This document shows positions 32,501 to 36,080 of a DNA stretch of 64,000 bases, in pieces. A program made the translations under genes and the position numbers. The stretch's first letter is position 1; each line of letters begins with the position of its first letter. The notes beneath the pieces are model-generated. The model did no database searches and was not told the DNA's origin. It worked only from the letters and a program-made list of their open reading frames with translations. The DNA is from Phytoseiulus persimilis (taxonomy: Eukaryota; Arthropoda; Arachnida; Mesostigmata; Phytoseiidae): positions 11,238,211 to 11,302,210 of the forward strand of contig CM075104.1 in NCBI GenBank assembly GCA_037576195.1, given 5' to 3'.

Positions 32501-35500
32501 CAGAGTTTGATGTTATCAGATGTATTGAAATCTGTTGCGGATTCACCGAGCGGAGTCGTCTTCGTTGTCGTCGTGATTCCAACCGGGCATCCTGTTATCT
32601 GCGATAGCTGAGAGACCAACTGCTGCTCGCGGCATGCACATCTGAGTAGAATGGAGCATTTAGGCAGGAGATAACGTCCATTCCAGTGACGCAATCGCAG
32701 AATACATTATATCGGACGGAACTCTCACTTGGCTCTGGCCGTTTGCCGGTTGTTACTCTCATGAGCGGTCGAATACATTCGAGATAACAGCCGCTGACAC
32801 CGAAAACTTCGGATTCGATCATCGGCATCGACATTATTCTCGAACATTTGCTCACAGGGAGGCGCAATCATCCTCCTCGGTGTGCGGCGGACGGAATCAA
32901 GATGGAGTTGGAATTCCGCGGGATCACCAGAAAATAGATTTCAGCCCGAGGGAGGGTCGAGTGTTGCGGCGTCGTCGCCTGTATACGTGGCTTCAATGTT
33001 CAGTTTTCAGTCCGAAAGCGACTGAAACAAACTGAATCGTACGACCCGAACGAGGACAGGCCGTCACGAATTCCCCTCGACGGAATAAGTGTTTAGCGGT
33101 TCTTCTCAGAACTGGCTTGGACAGAATTTCTCGGAACATGACAGACGAAGAGCAACTCGACACTAAAAATGAATAACTATGGAAGCCGGAACGAATTCTA
33201 TTTTTAGTGGTGCTTGTCGTCGACGCCGGTTGTTCTTCGCCTATAGGTCAACTGAAGACGACGACACCTTGAGCTGGTGGGCTTCCTCGTGCGCCTTTCA
33301 CAATGTTCGGGCTCAGTGTTCAGCTCGAGTCGAGTGATTCGCTGGAGTCGGATAATATCCATCACTACGCCCCCTCAGACATCTGACCCTGGCACGACTT
33401 CCGAAGCTGAGAACTCCAGTGGAAACAATCGCTGTCGCGGCAGCAGTCGTTCGCTGACGATACGCGAAAGATTCCCTCACTCTTGCTTCGGTCTTCTTGT
33501 TTTTGAGCCGCTGTCTGCATTCGAAGGTTATTTTGAGAAAGAAGCGAGCAACATGAATGCTCGATTCAGCTTCATCTATTCGGGTCGAGATGTCGTCTGG
33601 TAGTGTCGTCAGATGTTTTCTCCTGGTTGAAGGCCGAGACGATGGTCGGTAACGTCAATCACACCGTCCAATGCTCTCTGCTCAAAATCGCCGATTTCAA
33701 GGACTAGTATGGCAGCCGAGAGCGAATAATATAACGAATATAATCGGAGGGGAGAAGAGGTTCCCGAGGCAGACTGGCGGAGTTCGGATTCGGTCGGCGT
33801 CCACTGTAATCCCTTCTCGTCGACCATTACTTCTTCCTCTCCTTCCTTCGTTTCTTTCTTCTTTCCCTCGGTTGGCCAGCCAACGAGATTTCGAGTTTCG
33901 GCTGTGGTATCCAAGCCCACCATTCCTCCACCCGAGCTAAGGGCCCGGAGGCTGGCTGTCGGATTCTCGCCAAGCGAGCTAGCAAGCGAGCAGAGGAAAA
34001 GAGTCAGAGCGAGAGGAGCGAGTAAGAAAGCAAGAGGGTTCGAGAACCGGTCCTCGCGAGGAGAGCGGTGATGCTTCACCCTGCTCGCAGACCACGCCTC
34101 TGTTTAACGTATGAACCAATCGGCGGAGTCGTTGCGCCCTCTCCTTCGATGTCAACCAATGGATGGAGGGCTTGCTGGCTTTCTCTTCTAGGCTGCCGCT
34201 TTGCCACCGACGACGCGACGTAGTGGCTCTTGCTGCCGCCGCTACCACCTCTAACAACAGCAGCCGCAGCGACCGGTCAATACAAATAGACAATATTATA
34301 GATTTTATGGCTCATACGAGAGCAGCATCGCCACCAGCGGTAGAAACATCAGTGAACAAATTAAGGAGCGAACAGAAACGAGACTTCGCCGAAAAAAGGC
34401 TCCAGTTGGCAGCCCAGGCAGGCCAATCGTCATCTCTGGCGAACGACGTTGAATTTACGGAAATCCGCACTCAGTTCGCAGTTAGTCGTGCGCGGATTAT
34501 TCGTGAGGAACGTATTCCGGGGAATAGTCTTTCTTTCGTTGTCCTGTCGCGCAATGGTCACATGGAATGGGACACTGGAATGGGAGACATATTTTTCCTG
34601 GCGATTCACCGTTCGTTCCGAATTCCTTGAGGGGGTCTCAGGGCGAATCATTCTCTCCGTAAACTAGTGACACGTTAAACACGCGAAACACTGTTAACGG
34701 CTGGAACTTCGTTTCCTGGCACACTCCTGTCGATTGCCCATTTACCTTCCCTGCCCGTATCTATCTGAGTCGCTGTCTTGTACTTTTTCCTACTCTCTTT
34801 CCTCCGCCGTTCGACAGCAGCGGCATCAGCCGTTACTACGATAGGAGTTTGGTTGGTTGTTTGGTTGACTCGTTCATGGACCAGTGTCTGTCTGTTCGTT
34901 CATTTGTCGGTCCTCCGGCCGAGCAAACATTGAGACTCGTAAAACGAACAGAGGAGGCGAACAGGCAAGCTAATGTCCCTTTCGGTTCCGTTGTTGTTGT
35001 CGTTGGCGATGCTGTTTTTTTATGGCCTGCTCCCAAGCTCATGAGGTAGATCGCTCGCGCTACCGACTCGGACACCGGCCTCACACTGATTAGCAGTTTA
35101 AGTGGCTATTTTAATTAATCTACAGAGCCACCCAGCAACTACATTTTATATCTCACAGAATACAACGAAACTATCATCCGCACAATGTACGCTCTGGCTT
35201 CCCGGATCGTTGGCAGCTCTCGCTGACAGCTCGATTTCTAGTTTCGCGAGCCCTTCCCTGCCCTTGGAGGGGGGCGTGCTTTATGCACCCTTGTTTCCCA
35301 TTTGGTCACTCTCGAATGTTGGAGCAATCTCCCCCGATGGGGAGAAAGTTTCTATACTTAGATCGATAGCTGAGATGAATGCATATGCGCATAGATATTG
35401 TGTACCCAAACAGAACCCTTAGGCGGCGGGATGAACTTGGAAGTTTTCGACCCCAGAATATCGGGCTGATTGTGTTTATGTTTCACTTGCAGGTGCTTCC

Positions 35501-36080
35501 GGACTCCGTCGTCGCGGTAGGCAGACCTACACCCGTTATCAAACATTGGAGCTAGAAAAAGAGTTCCACACGAATCACTATCTCACGCGCCGGAGGAGAA
35601 TCGAAATGGCCCACGCGCTCTGCCTGACCGAGCGACAAATTAAGATCTGGTTCCAGAATAGGCGCATGAAACTTAAGAAGGTAACTAATCCGTTTTCGCG
35701 AGCCATATCTCAAACTGCCAAGACATCTCCGTGATCGCTTCCACGACCCTAGAAAATAATCAAAGAGCAACTCCGGATGACGGCCTCTCCGGCCTCCAAT
35801 ATTCCTTGACTCCTTCCTCATCTGAAGCCTGTCCCCTGAGGGACCTTCGTCATGGCTCGCATGAATTTCTGCAAACACCCTTTGTCCGACCAAGTCGAAC
35901 TGAGACTCAACAGCTCCTGGCAAACTTCCGTCTGAAACCCCCGTTTCCAACGATCCTCTCATTCCACAGGAGATCCAAGCAATCAAAGAACTCAACGAGC
36001 AAGAACGGCAGGCTCAGGCCGCGAGGGCCGCATCGACGGGAATAAATGGCGCCGGGGGCTCTGGACAAGGGACCCCGTAG
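23536..36080 (+). CDS. Ubx: Ultrabithorax Hox transcription factor (three coding exons)
   Basis: Coding exons are 23536-24073, 35493-35680 and 35970-36080 (phases 1 and 0), giving 278 residues. Exon 1 starts [17 protein letters not shown], close to the arthropod Ubx N-terminus MNSYFE, and ends with the hexapeptide motif FYPWMAIAG that binds Extradenticle. The 11.4-kb intron ends at TTTCACTTGCAG. Exon 2 gives a short linker (ASGL) and homeodomain residues 1-58, beginning [20 protein letters not shown] and with [14 protein letters not shown] in helix 3. Exon 3 supplies E59-I60 and the UbdA peptide [15 protein letters not shown] shared by Ubx and Abd-A, then [14 protein letters not shown] and the stop. 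The factor sets segment identity by activating or repressing target genes in the nucleus. The intron between K58 and E59 is unusual, and the poly-alanine tail of insects is absent. No other homeobox is seen in the window. Confidence 0.97.
26003..26056. repeat. GCAA/GCAG tetranucleotide repeat in Ubx intron 1
   Basis: Tandem GCAA, GGCA and GGGC tetranucleotides make a purine-rich simple repeat. A shorter related stretch lies at about 26200-26229. It is intronic, with no sign of function. Confidence 0.7.
27864..27882 (+). promoter_or_regulatory. Two TATA-like boxes inside Ubx intron 1
   Basis: TATAAAA at 27864-27870 is followed by TATAAAG at 27876-27882, in otherwise GC-balanced DNA and followed by a CA/CTG-rich stretch. 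It could mark an intronic promoter for a non-coding or alternative Ubx transcript. No initiator or ORF was tied to it. Confidence 0.25.
29130..29149. repeat. (GGA)n triplet repeat in Ubx intron 1
   Basis: Six to seven perfect GGA units on the + strand. Simple sequence. Confidence 0.75.

Follow-up and report, generated by a model that had tools for sequence, protein, structure and literature searches.

An intron between the homeodomain and the UbdA motif of Ubx in the mite Phytoseiulus persimilis, one of many in its Hox homeoboxes

The Ubx locus

The stretch of 64,000 nucleotides analysed here (the window, C4:11238211-11302210) belongs to a genome assembly of 180,977,233 bases in 127 contigs, of which C1 to C4 account for 173.7 Mb, and it carries the Ubx gene of the mite in three coding parts on the forward strand (Table 1). 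The remainder of the window holds a few further features. On the reverse strand, a frame with a PIN_4 domain (2454-3020, E 1.1e-10) adjoins a frame without any Pfam match (1285-2523), which may belong to that gene as another exon, and an open frame of 973 residues (54578-57499) with endonuclease and reverse transcriptase domains represents a non-LTR retrotransposon. An open frame of 433 residues on the forward strand (42455-43756) gave a weak match to the IRF-2BP1/2 C3HC4 zinc finger, which at 24.4 bits lies below the 26-bit cut-off.

The joined coding parts of Ubx give a product of 278 residues with a single Pfam homeodomain (E 2.1e-21). The hexapeptide, recognised by eye, the Ubx homeodomain and the UbdA motif are all present, and the best PDB matches, 4cyc and 4uus, extend through UbdA, identifying the gene as the Ubx orthologue. 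The same arrangement of the hexapeptide FYPWMAIAG, homeodomain and UbdA is found in Drosophila Ubx (4cyc, 4uus, 1b8i). Alignment of the joined product with the Drosophila Ubx chain 4cyc_A, covering 78 residues from the end of exon 1 through UbdA, was gapless across the exon 2/exon 3 junction with 75 of the 78 residues identical (E 5.9e-45), and the exon/intron reading is therefore not a matter of chance.

Direct reading of the sequence places the end of exon 2 at ATGAAACTTAAGAAG|GTAACT. The following intron, with a GC content of 51%, has GT and AG termini and ends in CATTCCACAG, its acceptor reads TTCCACAG, and exon 3, which encodes UbdA, starts in phase 0 with GAGATCCAAGCA, giving the exon joint AAG|G. 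On homology and splice signals, which set both of its boundaries, the interval 35681-35969 is a GT-AG spliceosomal intron that is predicted to be removed from the mRNA. The initial annotation had placed a phase 0 intron of 289 bp after residue 58 of the homeodomain, at AAG|GTAACT, in the interval 35493-36080; both the sequence and the gapless 4cyc_A match agree with this, and the interval runs exactly from the first base of exon 2 to the last base of the stop codon. The accompanying description of a split homeodomain holds as far as the position is concerned, since the junction lies between Lys58 and Glu59, but it applies to the edge of the domain only. All 57 positions of PF00046 fall inside exon 2 (C4:11273720-11273890), and the intron therefore sits at the C-terminal edge, parting the homeodomain from UbdA without cutting the DNA-binding core. 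In Drosophila Ubx the homeodomain and UbdA lie together on one 3' exon, whereas in the mite they are distributed over two.

Table 1 Features of the Ubx gene (window positions) and homeodomain introns of the other Hox genes (contig positions; sites given as homeodomain residues)
Feature	Position	Strand	Description	Basis
Ubx exon 1 (coding part)	23536..24073	+	starts MNAYFEP..., runs through the hexapeptide FYPWMAIA and stops one base into a Gly codon (phase 1); donor G|GTGAGT	sequence and translation
Ubx intron 1	24074..35492	+	11,419 bp, gap between hexapeptide and homeodomain	GTGAGT at 24074, TTGCAG at 35487-35492
Ubx exon 2	35493..35680	+	GASGL, then homeodomain residues 1-58	sequence; Pfam PF00046
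Ubx intron 2	35681..35969	+	289 bp, phase 0, GTAACT...CATTCCACAG, between residues 58/59	sequence, genome search
Ubx exon 3	35970..36080	+	homeodomain residues 59-60, UbdA motif, short tail, TAG stop at 36078-36080	sequence, homology
AATAAA, candidate polyadenylation signal	36575..36580	+	putatively of Ubx	motif scan
Read-through frame past the Ubx exon 2 donor	35681..35734	+	17 codons, then TGA at 35732-35734	
Antp homeodomain intron (L019/L086)	C1:33405980-33400135	-	58/59, phase 0, 5,846 bp	homology, splice signals
Hox3 homeodomain intron			18/19, phase 0, 96 bp	
abd-A homeodomain intron (L028/L087)	C2:37209428	-	codon 10, phase 2, 84 bp	
Dfd homeodomain intron (L064)			codon 24, phase 2, 85 bp	
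Dfd homeodomain intron, second (L064)			codon 53, phase 2, 189 bp	
Scr homeodomain intron (L035, L092)	C1:2223282 onward		50/51, phase 0, 5,632 bp	
ftz homeodomain intron (L082/L093)			codon 24, phase 2, 3,691 bp	
ftz homeodomain intron, second (L082/L093)			50/51, phase 0, 551 bp	
lab homeodomain intron			44/45, 727 bp	junction read by eye
Abd-B homeodomain intron			44/45, 176 bp	junction read by eye

Interrupted homeoboxes in the Hox set

The genome contains at least 95 homeodomain matches, and 88 of 95 were read out, the other seven being weak. Ten Hox genes were recognised, namely Dfd, Scr, Antp and Abd-B on C1, lab, pb, Hox3 and abd-A on C2, and ftz and Ubx on C4. For Ubx, Scr and Antp the best PDB match is the namesake, while abd-A had its best E-value with Ubx 4cyc and its second with abd-A 8f37, in which 58 of the 59 aligned residues are identical; the names lab, pb, Hox3, Dfd, ftz and Abd-B were presumed from signature residues. 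The homeodomains of Hox3, pb, Dfd, Scr, ftz, Antp, Ubx and abd-A are each 60 residues long, seven of these eight after joining at introns. The sequence following the abd-A homeodomain reads ETRAAKDGDDSKDGEADDSKEK, and the UbdA of abd-A is for this reason called degenerate.

In total, 11 introns interrupt the homeodomains of nine of the ten Hox genes, pb being the only uninterrupted one. Two of the introns, in lab and Abd-B, lie at 44/45, which we take to be an old intron position, and the other nine, in seven genes, lie elsewhere. Few coding stretches in animals are under constraint as strong as that on Hox homeoboxes, yet nine of the ten found here are split. The suggestion that the Ubx intron is an oddity of this one gene was consequently not borne out, the more so as Antp is interrupted at the identical site and in the identical phase. 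Three positions are each common to two genes (codon 24 in Dfd and ftz, 50/51 in Scr and ftz, 58/59 in Antp and Ubx), providing a natural data set for the question of whether introns re-land on few proto-splice sites.

Among the 39 homeodomain matches that reach the last Pfam position, four are then followed by GT, and GTRA occurs only in Ubx (GTAACT) and Antp (GTGAGT); in the other two cases, L003 and L026, the frame stays open past the GT. The Antp match ends in MKWKK|GTGAGT, with the donor AAG|GTGAGT after residue 58, and its 3' exon, ESKTKAHEEVFEPEYSET with the acceptor TTTCAG, lies 5,846 bp beyond the donor, so that Antp, like Ubx, has a phase 0 intron at 58/59 with an AAG|G joint. This exon was not seen within 4 kb downstream and emerged from a 9.5-kb search, where it was picked post hoc because it resembles the ENKTK tail known for Antp. 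As a check on this choice, AG followed by E[N/S]KTK occurred only once in 677,998 bases scanned on both strands, and the joined Antp product aligned to Antp 1hom_A through the junction (ENKTKG in 1hom_A). The Antp intron differs from that of Ubx in its length (5,846 bp vs 289 bp), in its stronger donor and in its dissimilar sequence.

The phytoseiid Metaseiulus occidentalis, reported to gain and lose introns at high rates (PMC7738191, citing Hoy et al. 2016), resembles the present mite in its intron turnover. The title of the 2016 study by Hoy et al. also names atomized Hox genes, and the Hox genes are dispersed here too, in contrast to the Hox cluster reported for Neoseiulus cucumeris (PMC6902594). 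The same report lists Scr as absent in Ixodes, Metaseiulus and N. cucumeris. In the present genome Scr exists, with its homeobox split by the 5,632-bp intron after residue 50 and with Scr as the best PDB match; a split homeobox can conceal a Hox gene from similarity searches, and the long intron may be what hides Scr from them.

In Bilateria, every one of the ten homeobox classes is reported to have introns inside the homeobox, with more than 20 positions known in all (PMC1779571), and the pb homeobox intron of Capitella is another Hox case (PMC2603591). The second Ubx intron belongs to this known class of homeodomain introns, and its main interest is that it is one of many in the Hox set; what sets the present case apart from other bilaterian ones is that a single genome has nine of its ten recognised Hox genes split and that the Ubx intron lies between homeodomain and UbdA. 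No description of an intron at Ubx 58/59 was found in the literature searched, which comprised neither subscription papers nor Hoy et al. 2016 and is thus weak evidence of novelty.

Origin of the second Ubx intron

The exonic proto-splice motif MAG|R is found at the joints of seven of the nine introns away from 44/45, the exceptions being Dfd codon 24 (TAG|A) and Hox3 18/19 (AAA|G). The Ubx joint, AAG|GA, conforms to the motif, which is also present, as AAG|G, at 58/59 of abd-A, Dfd and Scr, where it is unsplit. Published figures (PMC4862073), averaged over Hox genes and not given for Ubx alone, put the number of introns per Hox gene at 0.9 for Ixodes, 2.0 for Tetranychus, 3.8 for Drosophila and 4.0 for Daphnia. 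Since 58/59 is unsplit in these three paralogues and the Hox genes of Ixodes are intron-poor, the second Ubx intron is most simply read as a derived gain, as judged against the paralogues of this one genome; as a counterpoint, the Tetranychus average would be compatible with such introns in other mites. The initial annotation had likewise proposed an intron gain, which accords with phase 0 at AAG|G and the unsplit paralogues but has to accommodate the same-site intron of Antp. The Ubx intron is likely specific to this lineage.

The explanation regarded as probable, with splicing, timing and direction all inferred, is that an ordinary spliceosomal intron was gained in the mite lineage at AAG|G and that the gain in Antp was a separate event. 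In the lineage of this mite, the intron would have entered an AAG|G proto-splice site that already existed where the homeodomain borders UbdA, and Antp would have acquired its same-site intron independently. Removal of 35681-35969 by splicing would yield a normal Ubx with the homeodomain contiguous with UbdA, and the Ubx intron would be one of a group of nine or more, all away from 44/45, by which seven Hox homeodomains are now split.

The main alternative bearing on the shared position is an ancestral 58/59 intron that predates the divergence of Antp from Ubx, or that dates back to early chelicerates, and that most lineages lost while this mite kept it in both genes. Antp and Ubx adjoin in the ancestral cluster and their introns agree in site and phase, and the positions shared by Dfd with ftz and by Scr with ftz point in the same direction. 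How far such sharing calls for common descent depends on where introns can insert. This was examined in a coincidence test whose allowed sites always included the observed ones, and the exon edges it relies on may have evolved since the introns arrived. When insertion is limited to MAG|R, the three shared positions among nine introns compare with a mean of 1.57 (P 0.17) and are therefore unremarkable. Looser models make the sharing less expected if any AG is allowed (P 0.035) and improbable if any nucleotide is (P 0.0004), and under them the shared introns could have a common origin. The shared positions are most simply read as parallel gains. An ancestral intron would in addition require repeated loss across arthropods, and the low Ixodes average also speaks against it, as does the lack of detectable similarity between the Ubx and Antp introns, though old introns would keep none; it is considered unlikely.

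Identity of site and phase in a nearly identical protein context would also be expected if one of the two genes had received its intron from the other, through gene conversion or through reverse splicing into the near-identical homeobox, but the sequences make this very improbable. The best similarity between the two introns, 21.1 bits, is within chance, as 48 random pieces of the window reached up to 31.0 bits, and identical codons are used at 18 of 51 residues shared by the Ubx and Antp homeoboxes and at 20 of 46 shared by Ubx and abd-A, with no sign of recent conversion. The dissimilarity of the introns, together with the 18 identical codons out of 51, therefore renders recent copying between Ubx and Antp unlikely. 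That the interval is not an intron at all, reflecting an assembly error or a broken gene, is extremely improbable in view of the intact frames on both sides, the splice signals and the parallel structure of Antp.

Several sources for the intron sequence itself were considered and rejected. An introner or repeat origin was dismissed as the intron matches only itself in 181 Mb (in a search that passes over simple repeats and highly frequent words), duplication of nearby exon sequence as only matches of 7-11 bases to the gene's own exons were found, and a copy of the Antp intron as the similarity is no higher than that of the 48 random window pieces. An RNA gene, whether inside the intron or close to it, was discarded too, with no Rfam match at the gathering threshold and no tRNA within the window. 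A scan of prokaryote genome contigs yielded no relatives either, in a collection that is not expected to include mites and says nothing on them.

The weak donor and the fate of UbdA

The donor of the second Ubx intron, GTAACT, has one mismatch to GTRAGT, at +5. In a set of 36 homeobox-gene donors of the genome, assigned automatically by rule with about three possibly wrong and with one of 28 matches skipped, 31 scored higher and a single one had C at +5. The exon side of the donor, AAG|G, matches the consensus. If the intron were retained, conceptual translation gives a product of homeodomain residues 1-58 followed by 17 new residues and lacking UbdA.

These features raise regulated retention, in which the weak donor would allow both full Ubx and Ubx without UbdA to be made, a reading compatible with an intron gained at AAG|G yet decidedly unlikely. 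Besides the donor itself, the in-frame stop at 35732 with no downstream intron in the gene model is in favour of it, as escape of the retained form from exon-junction-dependent decay would be expected, and the UbdA of Drosophila Ubx is reported to be a separable motif that contacts partners (PMC5003318). Weak donors are nevertheless often constitutive, the AAG|G exon pairing compensates for the mismatch, and a second homeobox gene, L061, was assigned the identical GTAACT donor. It is a still more doubtful step to suppose that the gained intron made UbdA optional, retention yielding Ubx with or without the Exd-contact motif from one locus. If true, exon-level control of Hox partner choice would have arisen by intron gain, alongside gains in most other Hox homeoboxes, and the optional UbdA would occur in an animal whose abd-A UbdA is degenerate.
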